Source of the DNA: Sideroxydans sp.
Lineage (GTDB): Bacteria; Pseudomonadota; Gammaproteobacteria; Burkholderiales; Gallionellaceae
Direction: 5' to 3'
Assembly (NCBI GenBank): GCA_029850585.1
Contig: JARCRQ010000029.1
Location: 1-47,409, forward strand
DNA length: 47,409 nucleotides
Shown here: in pieces, positions 33,617 through 42,021 of the stretch
How the letters are laid out: each line of letters starts with the position of its first letter
How positions within the stretch are numbered: position 1 is the stretch's first letter
The notes under the pieces: generated by a model
The model's database searches: none
Seen by the model: the letters and a program-made list of their open reading frames with translations, nothing else
Told to the model about the DNA's origin: nothing
Translations under genes and position numbers: made by a program

Positions 33617-34571
33617 GCGCGCTCTCCAATACTTTCAGCACTAATTGCTCAAAACTAATCCCCGCATGGCGCGCCGCCATCGGCACTAAGCTGTGGTCGG
33701 TCATGCCAGGCGAGGTATTGGCTTCCAGTACATAAGGCTTGCCGTCTTCACTCATTAAAAAATCTACCCGCCCCCAACCTTGTCCACCAATCAGCGCGAA
33801 CGCTTGTTTTGCCAAATGTTGCATCTCGCTTTCTTGTGCAGCGGTGAGCTCGCAAGGGCACAAATAGCGCGTGTCATCGCGTAAATACTTCGCTTCAAAA
33901 TCGTAAAACTCATTGGCAGGGACGATGCGTATCACGGGCAAGGCGGTGTCGCCCAAAATCGCCGCTGTAAATTCGCCGCCGCCGACAAAACTTTCCGCCA
34001 TCACCAGCGTGTCGTACTTAACCGCCTCCGCATAGGCAGCGGCTAATTCGCCAACGCTTTTTACTTTGCTAATACCCACGCTAGAACCTTCGCACGCGGG
34101 CTTCACGAACAAGGGCAAGCCTAAATTTTTCACCACCTCCGCCGCATCAAAATCCGCCTTGAGCATTTGGAATTTTGGAATCGGCAAGCCTGCCGCTTGC
34201 CACACCAATTTACTGCGCCATTTGTCCATGCCCAAGGCGGAAGCCAATACGCCGCTGCCTGTATAGGGAATGCCCAATAATTCCAACGCGCCTTGCACCG
34301 TGCCATCTTCGCCCAAGCGTCCGTGCAGCGCGATAAATGCGCGCGCAAAACCTTGGTCGTATAGCTCTTGCAAATTGCGCTCGGCGGGGTCAAATGCGTG
34401 TGCATCCACACCTGACCGCTGCAACGCCGCCAACACCGCCGCGCCACTTTTTAACGACACTTCGCGCTCGGCGGATTTGCCACCAAACAACACCGCGACT
34501 TTGCCAAATGCAACCGTCGCGGATTGCGCATCGCGCGTCGCACCCGTGTCATTCATTTCATATTTGCTCAT
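33606..34571 (-). CDS. ddlB: D-alanine-D-alanine ligase
   Basis: Ddl joins two D-alanines for the peptidoglycan stem. The 321-residue ATP-grasp enzyme has [18 protein letters not shown] (about 27-44), [25 protein letters not shown] and the metal/ATP segment [16 protein letters not shown]. About 20 residues precede the usual start, giving a slightly long N-terminus ([20 protein letters not shown]). The start overlaps the murB stop (ATGA), which supports translation from here. Confidence 0.96.
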
Positions 34572-35542
34572 GCTGCTTCTCCGATAATTCTCACTTCGGG
34601 ATGGAGTTCCACCCCCGTTTGTGCGGCGACGCTGGCGCGCACTTCGCTAATTAAATTTTCTATATCGGCAGCACTCGCGCCACCCGTATTCACAATAAAA
34701 TTCGCGTGTTTCACCGACACCTGAGCGCCGCCGATTTGCTTGCCTTTTAAGCCACACAGCTCAATCAGCCGCGCCGCATGATCGCCCACAGGATTGCGAA
34801 ATACCGAACCTGCATTGGGCAAATTCAACGGCTGCGTGGCGATACGGGTACTCAGCCAAGCCTTGATAATTTGCCGTTCGATGTCGCCTTCGCCACGGCT
34901 AAATTTCAAGGTCGCAGAGACAAAGAATTCTTCTTGGTGAAAGGTGAAAGGTGAAAGGTGATGCGAACCCAGCTCTTTACCTTTCACTTTTCCCGTTTCA
35001 CTTTTCACAACATGTCTGTAACCAATCTCATAATCCTGCGCCGTGCGTGTCAGCAATTCACCGCTGCGCGTCAGCACTTGCACGCTCTCCACATGTTGCC
35101 AAGTATCCGAGCCATAGCAGCCTGCGTTCATCGCCAACATGCCGCCCATTGAGCCTGGGATACCCGCAAAAAATGCCGCTCCCGCCAAGTTGTGTAAGGC
35201 GGCAAAACGCGCCAACTTCGCACCCGCAATCCCCGCCTCGACATAGAGAGTCGAAGTATCAATACAGCGCAATTCGGTGAGTGCGCCGTGCAGCAAAATC
35301 ACCGTGCCGCGCAAGCCGCCATCGCGCACTAATAAATTGCTGCCCAAGCCCACTGCATAGACGCTTTCATCGCTAGGCAAACTGCGCAGAAACACTTGTA
35401 AATCCGCTAAATCCGCAGGCTGATACACACAATCTGCCACCCCGCCAACACGCCAACTGGTGTGCTTGCTCATGCGCACCTCGCGACGCAATTCGCCGCG
35501 TAAAGCCGTATCAGAAAAGTTGCGGATTTCGCTCATATTCAT
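34568..35542 (-). CDS. murB: UDP-N-acetylenolpyruvoylglucosamine reductase MurB, with a repeat-derived insertion
   Basis: MurB is the flavoenzyme that reduces UDP-GlcNAc-enolpyruvate to UDP-MurNAc. The FAD domain carries NTSWRVGG-type ([12 protein letters not shown]) and [13 protein letters not shown] sequences. [18 protein letters not shown] and [18 protein letters not shown] provide the catalytic region. Between YRHV and EEFFVSATL, around residues 179-203, is an unusual Lys/His-rich stretch encoded by a palindromic repeat. That region is a loop in normal MurB, and the frame is preserved. Starts and ends overlap murC and ddlB by 4 nt. Confidence 0.95.
34936..35008. repeat. GGTGAAA-type palindromic repeat inserted in frame within murB
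   Basis: Three GGTGAAA units (34936-34956) face CTTTCACTTTTCCCGTTTCA and CTTTTCAC (34981-35008) in inverted orientation, giving a long imperfect hairpin. The element replaces one loop of MurB with [19 protein letters not shown]-type sequence. Confidence 0.75.
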
Positions 35543-37002
35543 TTTTGCGTATTCGCTAACAACTGCGGCACGTTGCCTATCGTGCCCGCGCCCATCGTCA
35601 CCACTACATCGCCGTCGCGTGCCATCTGCATAATCGCGTTGGGCATGTCGCTAATGTTTTCGACAAACACCGCTGCCGTTTGTCCCGCCACGCGTAAGGC
35701 TTGCATCAGCGCGCGACCATCCGCCGCCACGATTGGTGCTTCGCCCGCGGCATACACTTCGCTCAATACCAGCGCGTCCACCGTGCCCAACACCTTCACA
35801 AAATCGTCGAACACATCACGCGTGCGCGTGTAGCGATGCGGCTGAAATGCCAGCACCAAACGCTTGTTTGGAAATGCGCCGCGCACCGCTGCCAAAGTTG
35901 CCGCCATTTCGACGGGGTGATGGCCGTAGTCGTCGATCAAAGTGAAGCTGCCAGAGGCAGCGGCGTTTGCCCCCTCGCCCTTTAAGGGAGAGGGTTGGGG
36001 TGAGGGTAAAATCTCAGCAGCACCTGATAATTTAATTTCACCATACCGTTGAAACCGTCTTCCGACCCCTTCAAATTCCGCTAACGCAGCAACAATCGCG
36101 TCCGCCTTCACGCCCACTTCCAACGCCACGGCAATCGCGGCGAGCGAGTTCAGCACGTTGTGTAAACCCGCTAAATTGAGCGTGATGTCTAAATCTTGTG
36201 GCACACCGTTTTGTCGACATTGCACGGTGTAGCGCATCTGCCCGCCTTCGTGGCGCACATTCACCGCGCGGATTTGCGCACCCTCACTCAAGCCATAAGT
36301 ACAAACAGGTTTACTGATGCGCGGCAAAATTTCGCGGATGTTGGCATCGTCCACACACACCATCGCCATGCCGTAAAAAGGCAGATGCTCGACAAAATCA
36401 ATAAACGCTTGCTTGAGTTTATTGAAATCGTGTCCGTAGGTTTCCATGTGGTCGGCATCAATGTTGGTGATGACCGACAAAATCGGTTGCAAATACAAAA
36501 ACGACGCGTCCGATTCGTCGGCTTCGGCAACGATGTAATCGCCTTGTCCCAAGCGCGCATTGGTGCCGCTGCTATTGAGTTTGCCGCCAATCACGAAGGT
36601 TGGATCAAAGCCGCCTTTCGCCAAAATGCTGGCAGTCAAAGAAGTGGTGGTGGTTTTGCCATGCGTACCCGCCACCGCGATGCCCTGACGTAGCCGCATC
36701 AGCTCCGCCAACATCATGGCGCGTGGCACAACGGGGATGCGCCGCGCGCGCGCCGCAACCACTTCAGGATTGTCGGCACGCACCGCCGTCGAGACCACTA
36801 CCGCATCGGCATCGCACAAATTGGCTTCGGCATGACCGCGATAAATGGTCGCGCCTAATTTTTGCAGGCGCAGCGTTGCGGCGTTTTCTGCCAAGTCCGA
36901 GCCGCTCACTTGAAAGCCCGAATTGAGCAACACTTCGGCAATGCCGTTCATGCCAGAACCACCAATACCGATAAAATGAATATGTTTGATTTTGTGTTTC
37001 AT
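35539..37002 (-). CDS. murC: UDP-N-acetylmuramate-L-alanine ligase MurC, with a repeat-derived insertion
   Basis: MurC adds L-alanine to UDP-MurNAc. The protein has [17 protein letters not shown] at the start and the ATP P-loop [11 protein letters not shown] (about 111-121). [11 protein letters not shown] and [15 protein letters not shown] (carbamate-lysine and third-domain regions) follow. Between [13 protein letters not shown] and [11 protein letters not shown] (about residues 329-351) there is an inserted Pro/Gln-rich segment encoded by a dispersed repeat. The start at 37002 overlaps the murG stop (ATGA); six upstream codons are less likely to be translated. It overlaps murB by 4 nt. Confidence 0.96.
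35971..36006. repeat. CCCTC/GAGGG palindromic repeat inserted in frame within murC
   Basis: CCCTCGCCCTTTAAGGGAGAGGG and the adjoining GGGGTGAGGG form a nested palindrome. It is a member of a widely seen family reading CCCTCACCCCAACCC on the other strand. In MurC it encodes [12 protein letters not shown], foreign to the fold. Confidence 0.8.
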
Positions 37003-38060
37003 TGCGCTAACTCCCCACACCCGTTTGCCACGCTTAACGCCGCATCTGGCTTTGCCAAAGCGCGCGCGGCAACAGCCATGTTCAATAACTTTGCTCGATC
37101 TAAATTTTGTAAATAACGCGCCAAAGTCACCGCGCTTAATGCGCTTTGTGGCAGCAGAATCGCCGCCCCCTGCGTGCTCAAAAATTGCGCGTTATAAGTT
37201 TGGTGATCGTCCACCGCATGAGGGTAGGGAATCAAAATACTTGCCACCCCAGCCGCTGCCAATTCCGCCACCGTCAACGCGCCAGCACGACAAATGACGA
37301 TGTCAGCCTCGGCATACGCAGTGGCCATATCGTCCACAAACGCTTGTATCTGTGCCGCCACGCCCGCCCCGCTGTATAAGGCTTGCACGCTGTCGAAATG
37401 TTTTTTGCCCGTTTGGTGTAACACCTCTGGACGCGTCGCTTCAGGAATTAACGCTAATGCTTGTGGCATCGCTTCATTCAAGGCTTGCGCACCCAAACTA
37501 CCGCCTACCAACAACACTTTTAACTTGCCAGTGCGTGACGCAAAACGTGTTGCGGGCGATGCCAACTGCGCAATCTCCGCACGCACTGGATTGCCGCACC
37601 AGCGCGCTTTTGGCAACACATCGGGAAAGCCGCTCAGCACGCGCTGCGCGATTTTTGCCAACAGTTTATTGCTCAGTCCTGCCACCGAATTTTGTTCGTG
37701 GATGACTAACTGCTTACCCAACAAACGCGCCATCACGCCACCTGGAAAAGTGATGTAACCGCCCATCCCCAGTACCACATCGGGACGCACCTCGCGAATC
37801 ACCGCCGCACTTTGCACACAGGCGCGCAACAACTGCATCGGCAAGGACACCAAGCGCAGCAAGCCTTTGCCGCGTACGCCTGAAAAATTCACCAAGCGTA
37901 TTGAATAGCCATGTTTAGGTACGAGCTCGGCTTCCATGCTGTTAGGCGCGCCCAACCACACCACCTGCCAGCCCTGCGCGCGCAACACGTCGGCAACCGC
38001 CAAGGCGGGGAAAATATGACCGCCTGTGCCACCCGCCATAATCAGGATAGTTTTGCTCAT
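36999..38060 (-). CDS. murG: Lipid II synthase MurG
   Basis: MurG transfers GlcNAc from UDP-GlcNAc to lipid I. The 353-residue protein has the [16 protein letters not shown]-terminal motif and the [14 protein letters not shown] and [15 protein letters not shown] segments. The C-terminal nucleotide-binding domain shows [13 protein letters not shown] and [16 protein letters not shown]. Length is normal. It starts within an ATGA junction that is shared, not with ftsW as it stands, but with a residual frame matching an FtsW end (38061-38172). Confidence 0.97.
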
Positions 38061-38172: not shown

Positions 38173-39336
38173 TCATATTGGAAGTCCCCGCGCGGCTTTT
38201 CTGTTTTCATAATCTACTCGGAGCAACACCGCCGCTGCCACGCAATTCACCAGGATGCCGCTGCCGCCAAAGCTCAAGAACGGCAAGGTCAAGCCTTTGG
38301 TCGGTAGTACGCCCATGTTCACGCCGATGTTAATCATGGCTTGCACGCCGATCCAAATGCCGATGCCTTGTGCCACCAGTGCGGCGTAATTGCGATCTAA
38401 AAATGCCGCTTGGCGACCGATTTGGAAGGCGCGTATGAGTACGAACATAAACAACAACAACACCGCTGCTACGCCCACTAAACCTAGCTCTTCAGCTATT
38501 ACCGCCATCAAAAAATCGGTGTGCGCTTCGGGCAAATAAAATAATTTTTCTACACTCGCGCCCAAGCCCACGCCCAACCATTCGCCACGTCCAAAGGCAA
38601 TCAGCGCGTGGCTTAATTGATAACCTTTACCGTATGGATCTGACCAAGGGTCGAGGAAGCCAATCACGCGCTGCATCCGATACGGCGAGGAGACCACCAA
38701 GACCACAAAGACCGTAGGCAAGGCGAACAACAACAGCCCAAATACTTTGAGATTGAAGCCGCCTAACCACAAGGTGCAAATCGCAATCGAGGTAATCACG
38801 CCTAACGCGCCCATGTCGGGTTCGAGCAACAACAATGCCCCGACCACGCCCATCACCAAAAACATCGGCACAAAGGCTTGCAAAAATTTGTGTCCAACAT
38901 GCGCTTTGCGCACGGTGTAATCGGCGGCATACAACACCGCGAATAACTTCATCAGTTCAGAGGGTTGCAAATTGATGACGAACAACGACAACCAACGCCG
39001 GCTGCCATTGACTTCGCGACCGACATGCGGAATCAGCACCAGCAACAACAACACCGTGCCAATCACGAATAACGGCATAGCGAGGTTTTGCCAAATTTGC
39101 AGCGGCACTTGAAACGCGGCGATGCCAGCGAGGATGCCCAGCGCGATAAAAATACCGTGGCGAATTAAATAGTAGCTGGCATTAAAACCTGTGAACTTAC
39201 TGGCTTCGGCGGTGGCAATCGACGCGGAATAGACCATCACTAAACCGACAGACAACAATGCGACCAACACCCACAACAACAGCGCGTCGAATTGCGTTTG
39301 CGGGGGGCGCGCGCCTGATTTAACTAATGAGACCAT
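38173..39336 (-). CDS. ftsW: Septal peptidoglycan polymerase FtsW
   Basis: FtsW is the SEDS-family glycosyltransferase that polymerises lipid II at the septum with FtsI. The 387-residue protein has ten membrane helices. The SEDS motifs include [15 protein letters not shown] (about 118-132), [19 protein letters not shown] and the [18 protein letters not shown] region with the conserved Asp/Glu residues. [19 protein letters not shown] ends the core. A GGAGG site lies within the upstream murD tail, with a 13-nt overlap. The last ten residues appear to be supplied by an inserted element. Confidence 0.96.
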
Positions 39337-40751
39337 GCGCCCTCCGCGTTAATCTTTCCCTCTGACAAGGGGGAGGTAGAAGGGGTTAACTCGCGCACCG
39401 CCGCGATAAAAACTTGCGCGCGATGTTCGTAGTTGCGGAACATATCAAAGCTCGCACAAGCAGGCGACAGCAACACCGCATCGCCCTCTTGTGCCAAGCG
39501 CGCTGCGGCTTGCACGGCGGAGGGCATATCGGCAGCGCGTTCAATTTTGACGGCGGTAGTCGCGAGGGCAGCGGCGATTAACTCGGCATCACGCCCAATC
39601 AAAACTACTGCGCGCGCATGATTTTTTACCGCAACAGCGAGCGCCGCAAAATCTTGTCCTTTGCCTTCACCGCCCGCAATCAACACCGCCTTGCACCCCA
39701 AGCCCTGTAAGGCGGCAACCGTTGCGCCGACATTGGTGCCTTTGGAATCATCGTAGTAGGTCACGCTGGCAATTTGCGCGACTTTTTCGACGCGATGCGC
39801 CAAACCGTGGAAGCTGCGCAAGCCGTCCAATAATGCCGCCATCGGCACATCTATCGCACGGCACAACGCCAAGGCTGCCAAGGCGTTCGCCACGTTATGT
39901 AAGCCACTCAATTGCAACTCATTGGCGCGCATTAAGCGTTGCGTGCCTTGCATTAAATACAACTCGCCATCGAACCTTGCCACGCCAAAATCTTGCTCAC
40001 GCGTGGGGGTGTCTAAGCCAAAAGTCACCGTCGCCACATCAGCACGCGCCAGCTCTAACGTCGCCGTATCGTCGCGATTCAACACTTGCAAACGGCAACC
40101 CAGCAGCGCGCGCGCCTTCGCTGCGATATAGCCGCTCATGCCGTCATAGCGGTCGAGATGATCTTCGCTGAGGTTCAAAACCGTTGCCGCCGCTGCACGC
40201 AAACTCGTCGTCGTTTCCAATTGAAAACTCGACAGCTCCAACACCCACACATCAGGCTGTGCTGCGCCGCGCTGCATCATCACGTCCAATACCGCAGGCG
40301 AAATGTTGCCCGCTGCCACAGCATCTAAGCCCGCCACTTGGCACAGATGTGTGACTAAAGAAGTCACCGTGGTTTTGCCATTACTGCCCGTGATGGCGAG
40401 AACTTGAGGATTGAGGGTCGCGGCGCACGCTGACAAATGTTGAGCAAATAATTCGATGTCGCCAACCACTTCAATCCCGCGTGCGACCGCTTTAGCGACG
40501 ACAGGGTCGGCAAGCGGCACACCGGGGCTCATCGCGATGCAATCTATGTCGTCAAACAAAGCGTCGCTAAATGCGCCACAGAAAATTTGCTCAGGCTGAA
40601 CGTAGCTCGCGGCAACAGCCAAACTCGCTGGCGCAGTCCGACTATCCGCCGCGCGCAACCGCGCGCCCTGCGCACTTAAATAGCGCAGCATGGATAACCC
40701 TGTCTCACCGAGACCGAGTACCAAAACGAATTTGTCAGACCAAATTTTCAC
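39324..40751 (-). CDS. murD: UDP-MurNAc-L-Ala:D-Glu ligase MurD with repeat-derived C-terminal tail
   Basis: MurD adds D-glutamate to UDP-MurNAc-L-Ala. The 475-residue protein starts with GTG ([20 protein letters not shown]), has the P-loop [14 protein letters not shown] (about 129-142), [12 protein letters not shown], and [17 protein letters not shown]. The normal family end is the [11 protein letters not shown] helix. About 21 further residues ([19 protein letters not shown] and on) are encoded by a palindromic repeat at the gene's 3' end. The tail also contains the ftsW ribosome site. It has no strong ribosome site of its own; the residual mraY end stops nine bases before it. Confidence 0.96.
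39356..39389. repeat. CCCTC-type palindromic repeat at the 3' end of murD
   Basis: TTCCCTCTGACAAGGGGGAGG followed by AGAAGGGG is an imperfect palindrome. It belongs to the same general class as the murC repeat and encodes the extra MurD tail. Confidence 0.6.
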
Positions 40752-40759
40752 AGTGTTTT

Positions 40760-40825
40760 TTAACGTAACTTAAGTGTTGCAAGACCAATCAACACCAACA
40801 ACATCGTGATAGTCCAAAACCTCAC
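40760..40825 (-). pseudogene. Residual second 3' end of mraY (21 codons plus stop)
   Basis: On the minus strand this reads VRFWTITMLLVL then IGLATLKLR and a TAA. It is the same peptide as the end of the intact MraY at 40918, with one difference (Thr for Ile). The DNA differs at about 17 of 63 positions, nearly all synonymous, so the two ends diverged while under selection in separate genes. The copy stops nine bases before the murD GTG, where a normal mraY end would lie. An ATG inside it could still allow a 14-residue leader peptide. It is separated from mraY by an inverted-repeat element. Confidence 0.85.
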
Positions 40826-40889
40826 GTTAGCGTTTGGTGTCGCCATAACGTTCGCTACGCTCACATGAGTCTCCCCCAACGCTAACGTG
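40823..40889. repeat. Inverted-repeat element between mraY and its residual copy
   Basis: CACGTTAGCGTT (40823-40834) is an exact inverted match to AACGCTAACGTG (40878-40889). The unit is 67 bp, with ACGTTCGCTACGCTCA in its middle, and carries no frame. It abuts the residual mraY end exactly. The sequence on to 40917 shows nothing recognisable. Confidence 0.75.
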
Positions 40890-40917
40890 CCACGCTTCTT
40901 CACAGTCATTTCATTTC

Positions 40918-42021
40918 TCATCGCAGTTTGAGTGTTGCCAGTCCTATTAAGACTAGCAACATTGTGATAATCCAGAAGCGCACCACCACTTGCGTTTCTT
41001 TCCAGCCTTTTTGTTCAAAGTGATGATGCAAGGGAGCCATTAACAAAATGCGTTCGCCTTTGCCGAAACGCTTTTTGGTGTATTTGAACCAGCTCACTTG
41101 CAACATCACCGACACCGCTTCCACCACAAACACGCCGCCCATGATGAACAGCACTAATTCTTGGCGCACCATCACCGCCACTACGCCTAACGCTGCACCC
41201 AATGCCAACGCACCTACGTCGCCCATAAACACTTCGGCGGGATAGGCGTTGAACCATAAAAATGCCAAGCCAGACCCCGCAATTGCGGCACAGAAAATTG
41301 CCAATTCACCCGCGCCTGGAATGGCTGGCTCGCCCAAGTATTTGGAAAATTCAGCGTGACCTGCAACGTAGGCAAACACCGCCAACGCACTCGCCACCAT
41401 CACCGTCGGCATAATCGCCAGCCCATCTAAACCGTCGGTTAAATTGACCGCGTTACTGGTGCCTACGATTACCAAATACACCAGCACCATAAAGCCGACC
41501 ACGCCCAAGGGAAAAACCCAATGTTTGAAGAACGGCACGATCAGTTCGGTGTGCGCGGGCAAGGTCGCGTGCGACCACAAAAACGCGCCCACCGCTAAGG
41601 CGATGAGCGATTGCCAAAACATTTTTGCCTTCGCCGACAAACCATCGGGATTGCGATGTACCACTTTGCGATAGTCGTCCACCCAGCCGATTGCGCCCAC
41701 GCCTATCGTGGTGAGCAATGCGACCCACACATAGGCGTTGCTTAAATCTGCCCACAACAAAGTGGTCAACACCACCGAAGTTAAAATCAGCGCGCCACCC
41801 ATGGTCGGCGTACCCGCCTTAACCAGATGGGTTTGCGGACCATCCGTGCGCACCGACTGACCGATTTTTAGCGCGGTCAAGCGTCGTATCATCCAAGGCC
41901 CCAGCGCGAACGAAATCAGCAACGCCGTCATTGCCGCCATCACCGCGCGCAGCGTGATGTAATTGAACACACTAAAAGTGCGTACATCGAGTGCCAACCA
42001 TTGTGCTAACGCTAATAACAT
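40918..42021 (-). CDS. mraY: Phospho-N-acetylmuramoyl-pentapeptide transferase MraY
   Basis: MraY makes lipid I by transferring phospho-MurNAc-pentapeptide to undecaprenyl phosphate. The 367-residue protein has ten membrane helices. The catalytic aspartates lie in [14 protein letters not shown] (about 120) and [11 protein letters not shown], and the third in [16 protein letters not shown] (about 268). [18 protein letters not shown] is the HHH motif. Length is normal and it has an AAGGAG site. It is followed not by murD but by a repeat element and a residual second mraY end. Confidence 0.97.

Follow-up and report, generated by a model that had tools for sequence, protein, structure and literature searches.

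Between mraY and murD in Sideroxydans sp. lies a small hairpin together with a second, apparently displaced, 3' end of mraY. It is one member of a dispersed family, REP/MITE-like in character, of the host's order (Betaproteobacteria, to judge by named relatives; the mraY records nearest to the window place the host close to Gallionella and Sideroxydans). In many copies the hairpin sits just inside the end of a gene and that end is repeated directly on its other side, which leaves the gene whole. The reading that we favor is that the second end, or ghost, is probably the native mraY 3' end, displaced by a cassette made up of a replacement tail, a spacer of about 28 nt and a 67-nt hairpin. All coordinates refer to the window, the 47,409-nucleotide stretch (contig JARCRQ010000029.1) that was analyzed.

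A second mraY end at the mraY–murD junction

Direct reading of the minus strand gives the order mraY, 28-nt spacer, 67-nt hairpin, ghost mraY end and murD (Table 1). Throughout, T1 denotes the working end of a gene and T2 the leftover duplicate end (the ghost), and genomes that carry the hairpin at mraY are referred to as inserted. The start of the ghost overlaps the last three bases of the 3' arm of the hairpin. When set against the intact mraY end (40983-40918, minus strand), the ghost is identical at 20 of 21 residues and different at 17 of 63 bases; these figures, given in an earlier note made on this DNA, were correct upon rereading of the sequence, and the 67-bp inverted repeat that it placed at the seam is likewise real (arms 40823-40837 and 40875-40889, 93% complementary). 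By codon position the 17 differences fall 3, 1 and 13 over the 21 codons compared, corresponding to 13 silent codons and one amino-acid change, a pattern that upholds the earlier proposal that the two ends diverged inside functional genes. The stop codons of T1 and T2 also differ (TGA and TAA, respectively). Local alignment of T1 with T2 scored 65, as against at most 26 for controls with the same stretch and at most 32 for all control pairings.

Table 1 Features of the mraY–murD junction and the second copy of the hairpin in the host genome
Feature	Position	Strand	Basis
mraY, intact	40918..42021	-	ORF list; homology to mraY loci
Working tail T1 (last ~80 bases of mraY)	40918-40997	-	Tail/body conflict
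Spacer, mraY stop to hairpin	40890..40917	-	Aligned with L088-L091 and L023
Hairpin element	40823..40889	-	Inverted repeat; covariation; covariance-model match of 91.1 bits, the window copy itself being among the model's building sequences
Ghost T2, displaced mraY 3' end with stop codon	40760..40825	-	Sequence reading, alignment, codon comparison
Putative coupling micro-ORF (53-codon open frame from an ATG overlapping the mraY stop, through the hairpin, to the ghost's stop)	40760..40921	-	Frame reading
murD, next gene	39324..40751	-	ORF list
Second host-genome copy (L087, L144), nuoC-nuoD junction	G000:C30:50577-50644	antisense	Exact 33-bp duplicate of nuoD start

The same ghost and hairpin are found at mraY in nine other genomes (L023, L035, L071, L076, L088-L091 and L098), and because the arrangement recurs in this way it is no assembly artefact of the window. 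A further candidate, L007, was rejected as a ghost case; two identical tails flank a run of N there, with no hairpin match, and the locus was counted as an assembly gap.

Other repeats are present in the window. An inverted repeat at 34937-35001, with 23-nt arms that are 87% complementary, lies inside murB (34568-35542, minus strand), in a stretch apparently translated as 23 residues, and resembles a palindromic repeat of a different kind that was inserted in frame. Each of murC (35539-37020, minus strand) and the C terminus of murD contains an 11-residue stretch, and both stretches have the look of translated fragments of one shared low-complexity repeat.

A dispersed hairpin family, often flanked by repeated gene ends

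The inverted repeat, which the earlier note mentioned in passing and whose significance it overlooked, is the main feature of the locus, being a member of a dispersed hairpin family with like ghosts at unrelated genes. Among the best 80 mraY loci from public genomes, four have the hairpin (L023, L035, L071 and L076), and whole-genome searches added the mraY copies L088, L089, L090, L091 and L098. A model (R1) built from six mraY copies and searched against 150 genomes of the host family at E <= 0.02 detected the hairpin in 38 of them; a refined model (R2), searched against 300 genomes of the host order at E <= 1e-4, detected it in 63, representing 34 of 134 genera. Eight genomes picked because they already had hits contained from 2 to 22 copies each (R2, E <= 0.5). 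The host genome has two copies, that of the window and one at the start of nuoD. At mraY, a similar core subtype occurs in Gallionella-like genomes, in a genome named as Thiobacillus (L076), in a proteobacterium (L071) and in a genome named as Methylophilus (L035).

In layout, the hairpin comprises a 12-nt outer arm, a core in which GGGGGAGACTCAT, a stem with a GTA loop and GTTATGGCGACACCA follow one another with G.A mismatches, and a second 12-nt outer arm; most cores, as judged by eye, begin near GGNGNAGNCT and end near GNCGNNACCA. Folding exceeded that of shuffled sequences by 3.8 SD for the window copy, 6.7 SD for L071 and 4.3 SD for L076; the L023 copy did not fold better than its shuffles (0.5 SD). 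The hairpin shows strong compensatory changes. In particular, 9 of 24 pairs are changed on both sides among the six mraY copies, and in 36 copies, aligned by fitting to the model (a procedure that favors the structure), 87.3% of cells pair (64.5% in shuffles) and 202 cells are changed on both sides (67.5 in shuffles), with 0 of 500 shuffles as high.

The conserved structure and the similar core subtype at mraY in these relatives would be consistent with an ancient cis-regulatory RNA, passed on vertically at the mraY–murD junction and retaining the ghost as one of its parts. Nevertheless, we consider such an RNA quite improbable, given the patchy occurrence of the hairpin (four of the best 80 mraY loci), its use of other genes and of both strands, and the failure of the inserted mraY bodies to group together. 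Searches of Rfam 15 gave no match overlapping the hairpin in the window or L023 at E <= 10; among 14 other loci searched at E <= 0.1 there was one match, BjrC68 in L129, which was below the cut-off and outside both hairpin copies.

To describe the surroundings of the hairpin, we aligned upstream against downstream DNA around 54 copies (L023, L118, L119 and later copies being left out) and retained repeats that scored at least 36 and whose downstream copy adjoined the hairpin. By this filter a direct repeat of the gene end flanks the hairpin in 23 of the 54 copies; the other 31 fall below it, some of them with short atpG repeats. Three hand-picked copies with visible repeats (L195, L197 and L200) were added to give 26 loci, for 10 of which the coding strand was set by hand, overriding the automatic choice in five (L096, L105, L129, L195 and L200). 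The hairpin lies between T1 and T2 at mraY, atpG, nuoD, murG, dps and other genes, where names other than mraY and murD (atpG, nuoD, murG, dps, ruvC, acs, dksA, argB, purL and so on) were read from translations. The repeats at nuoD in the host genome (33 bp) and at murG in L104 (38 bp) are exact and look recent. Others include 44 columns in L128, dps tails (L129, L133 and L134), a ruvC-like start (L135), an acs-like tail (L110), a repeat of about 112 bp in L197 (a single-contig genome from another family) and an exact 50 bp in L136 that is part of a tandem duplication including the hairpin. Units consisting of an atpG tail, spacer and hairpin also form tandem arrays of two and of four copies (L105, L210), closed by a final atpG tail. 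At nuoD, protein patterns revealed a second start in 11 of 20 fetched loci, the host genome included; with the decayed second starts of L145 and L152, an intact or decayed ghost is present in 13 of the 20.

At all 26 loci T1 is the end that adjoins the body of the gene, the hairpin being in the sense orientation at a 3' end in 20 and antisense at a 5' end in 6. We read this bias as survivorship, in that a gene stays whole only if the insertion points outward and falls within one duplication length of the end. Because the hairpin can face either way along a gene, as these sense and antisense loci show, we rejected the idea that the segment separating T1 from T2 is spliced out of the RNA.

Several individual copies were noted by eye. 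One lies in frame inside a purL-like gene (L125), and another apparently breaks an ABC-transporter gene (L126). In the single-contig genome G148, the hairpin appears to form part of a longer dispersed repeat (L202-L209 and L211), the flanks being similar in several copies. In G043, three identical 65-nt cores (L192, L193 and L194) adjoin, or lie within, a different repeat that contains CTTTCTTTGCTCGTGCAAAG, perhaps as a nested insertion.

The outer arms of the hairpin also bear a relation to neighboring DNA. In 17 of 57 copies, host DNA lying up to 150 bases upstream is complementary to the 5' arm with a score of 10 or more out of 12; in 6 of 57 the start of T2 is so, the downstream stretch searched being shorter. 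Because of this complementarity we consider the host to be the source of part of the outer arms. Such host-derived arms could be generated by template switching within inverted repeats, from one arm to the other, which is described as an established mutation process in the accessible parts of two papers (PMC7202029, PMC8794818).

Divergence of the two ends and origin of the working tail

When differences between T1 and T2 were pooled over 25 loci and 410 codons (L089, a near-duplicate of L088, having been dropped from the 26), there were 127 silent and 24 non-silent codons, with base differences of 37, 14 and 127 at the three codon positions. Rough reasoning suggests that a T2 drifting freely after a local duplication should show more non-silent than silent changes. 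Because the differences are mostly silent, against this expectation, T1 and T2 appear for the most part to have diverged while each was functional. The nuoD comparisons, 12 in number, gave 26 silent codons and one non-silent codon (a start codon), figures biased toward silent changes by the use of protein patterns to find the nuoD T2s. Within a genome, the nuoD T1 and T2 carry the same protein variant, which fits close donors and also fits local copying. Some ghosts (L071, L076 and L145) have mainly non-silent changes, as expected of older relics; the mraY ghost of L071 has no silent and five non-silent changes, and the nuoD ghost of L145 has four changed residues. In L071 and L076, T1 and T2 have species-specific codons in common even though the ghosts look commonly inherited, which suggests gene conversion.

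The end might alternatively have been duplicated locally on insertion, with T2 then held under protein-level selection as a translated micro-ORF that keeps operon coupling, as proposed for MIRUs, which are thought to do so by internal frames of this sort (PMC12548453, in the part available). Consistent with such a role, the frame from the mraY stop is open through the hairpin to the stop of the ghost in all seven of the mraY copies read (the window, L023, L035, L071, L076, L088 and L089), beginning in L035 three bases after the mraY stop, and at nuoD a frame of roughly 40 codons begins at the start of the ghost and closes a short way before or beyond the true start. Local duplication would also accommodate the excess of silent codons at nuoD, biased as that sample is, and the protein variants shared there by T1 and T2. 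However, the dps ghosts of L129 and L134 have no in-frame upstream start and yet show silent differences only, the ghosts of L071, L076 and L145 decay, and the working tails of four species are more alike than their gene bodies. We therefore regard local duplication with selection on T2 as unlikely. Judged from the reading frames, the candidate micro-ORF may lower the cost of an insertion, but it leaves the dps ghosts unexplained.

Displacement of a native end by a foreign tail, the explanation that we favor, bears on the relationships of the tail and the body of mraY. These were compared for five inserted genomes (the window, L088, L090, L091 and L098), with L089 and L023 serving as partners only and L035, L071 and L076 left out. 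The body of the window gene is nearest to that of the uninserted L002 (0.798, and 0.85 over the last 300 bases), followed by the inserted L091 (0.783 and 0.803), whereas its tail is nearest to those of L090 and L091 (0.857 each), with L002 at 0.762. L091 resembles the window, its body and tail affinities conflicting alike. For L088, the closest bodies are those of its inserted sisters L023 and L089, followed by those of the uninserted L010, L011 and L017, and the tail of L088, sisters aside, is nearest to L090 (0.905). The body of L090 is about equally near to the uninserted L010, the inserted L091 and the uninserted L002, and the tails closest to its own are those of L089 and L023 (0.921). 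L098 is a misfit, with a body nearest to L004 and a tail nearest to L005 (0.857), both uninserted. Taken together, the inserted mraY bodies do not group. At informative sites, which separate inserted from uninserted relatives, the window body sides with L090 at 43 and with L002 at 108, versus 7 to 1 in favor of L090 in the tail (Fisher p = 0.0013); three more trios gave p = 0.030, 0.0043 and 0.0034, where the trios overlap, were picked after the tail and body distances had been seen, and each rest on 8-12 informative sites in a tail of 63 bases. In four of the five inserted genomes, then, the working tail is closest to the tails of other inserted species and the body is not, and these sequence comparisons support a putatively foreign origin for the tail.

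The earlier note had proposed that mraY, and perhaps more of the cluster, was replaced by the allele of a related donor. The conflict between tail and body speaks for such a replacement of the tail only, if at all; replacement of the whole of mraY or of more of the cluster is at odds with a shift of affinity that lies within the last ~87 bases. A plain allele replacement from a donor with a different mraY–murD junction, the hairpin being incidental, would fit both this conflict and the silent divergence. The presence of the same hairpin with the same type of ghost at unrelated genes argues that the hairpin is not incidental and that the junction in the window does not represent a one-off allele exchange; plain replacement is accordingly disfavored, and we think it very improbable.

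The case for T2 being native can be considered in the same terms. Identity between T1 ends among L086, L088, L090 and L091 is 53-60 of 66, as compared with 46-52 of 66 between T2 ends; versus the more distant L035, identity between T2 ends equals or exceeds that between T1 ends in several pairs. Single uninserted tails come close to T1 (L003, 54 of 66; L005, 59 of 66). The ghost of the window is not closest to the adjacent intact end, the relationship that the earlier note had tied to a local duplication: it shares 48 of 66 bases with that end and 52 of 66 with L002, T1 sharing 50 of 66 with L002. The corresponding counts for L091 are 51 and 51. The native status of T2 follows mainly from T1 being foreign and, taken by itself, is weakly supported.

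Proposed movement of the hairpin, known elements and significance

Phages and islands integrate into the 3' ends of genes and restore the end, leaving a working replaced end and a leftover native end that often differ silently. The mraY–murD junction resembles such a site in having a working, probably replaced end and a leftover, probably native one, with mostly silent differences, and differs from it in that only ~92 bp separate the two ends, leaving no room for an integrase (and holding no integrase gene), and in that several target genes share one core. A prophage or island integrated at the 3' end of mraY by a tyrosine recombinase and later deleted would bear this classic signature of a restored end with a leftover original end, but the ~92-bp spacing, the same core at different genes and the tandem copies in L105 and L210 make such a remnant hardly credible. 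Among the inserted mraY loci inspected, no larger element was seen. Rickettsia palindromic elements are palindromes able to lie in frame inside genes, as does the copy in the purL-like gene of L125; unlike them, many copies of the hairpin are found at gene ends with a duplicated end.

The family is like REPs and REPINs (GTAG and CGTC families), as described in the accessible part of PMC3733652, in being a short imperfect palindrome that is dispersed, often lies just 3' of genes, is sometimes inside them and occurs in tandem groups; unlike those elements, it has longer, partly host-derived outer arms and often a duplicated gene end. The outer feet of the aligned copies are apparently neither GTAG nor CGTC, as judged by eye, and some copies have CGTC inside the core; CGTC REPs are said all to end in CCA-like tails (PMC3733652, accessible part). 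A Y1 transposase (PF01797, E <= 1e-10) does not track the hairpin, being present in 6 of 11 genomes with it and in 9 of 13 without, the latter defined as genomes with no match under the strict filters of the R1 and R2 searches. Because CGTC REPs lack a Y1 transposase, as far as the same part of that paper goes (PMC3733652), the absence of such a link is not decisive against REP membership. Like MIRUs, as covered in the available part of PMC12548453, the hairpin is small and apparently mobile, and it lies at the ends of genes, where an open frame might maintain coupling; unlike MIRUs, it has a conserved core, variable arms and a gene-end duplication of 20-115 bp.

MITEs have terminal inverted repeats and a target duplication in common with an autonomous transposon; direct repeats flank many copies of the hairpin, and no autonomous partner was seen in half-site searches of six genomes. 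Matches in these searches exceeded those of reversed-pattern controls (83 versus 14 and 58 versus 17), except in the second search of G360 (5 versus 8), and no kilobase-spaced pair of half-sites, such as an autonomous copy with a gene in its loop would show, was seen in the six genomes. Three exact patterns returned nothing from viral contigs. BLAST with the mraY-type copy L076 matched no more than short pieces of the query (up to 38% of it in plasmids and up to 31% in phages), all from the half that holds the ghost and many of them annotated as mraY; the murG-type copy L104 gave nothing in plasmids at E <= 0.1. In the literature searched (full text of open-licence PMC papers only) we found no description of the hairpin family, which is real, recurrent and undescribed in that literature. 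Among small palindromic interspersed repeats, it is distinctive in its duplicated and, at mraY, probably foreign gene end.

How the cassette moves, we infer as follows. At mraY, it would have passed between related species by homologous recombination, making T1 foreign and leaving T2 native, with the left exchange near the tail and the right one within the ghost. Short-tract homologous recombination is enough to transfer the mraY tail, and site-specific homing may be an alternative route. First entry into a new site would involve the copying of 20-115 bp from the end of the gene together with a short inverted copy of its start, perhaps through strand displacement and template switching at the hairpin. 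Our confidence in displacement by a cassette is lowered by L098, by L091 and by the weak evidence for a native T2. A bolder reading, which we put forward tentatively and think rather unlikely, is that the elements spread between species as gene-specific spare-end cassettes, each a common core joined to the replacement start or stop end of one gene; each insertion would then leave the host gene whole and its native end stranded as a ghost that could be dated. To the eye, core subtypes seem to go with particular target genes (a mraY type and an atpG type), which would hint at target-guided homing by some enzyme.

If these interpretations are true, the host order contains a widespread repeat family so far undescribed in the papers searched, and the ghosts that it leaves document the passage of short DNA segments from one species to another at essential genes (mraY, murG, atpG and nuoD). 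Restoration of the gene by the duplicated end would provide a way for an insertion near a gene end to be harmless, and the ghosts would permit a dated test of how small hairpins move.
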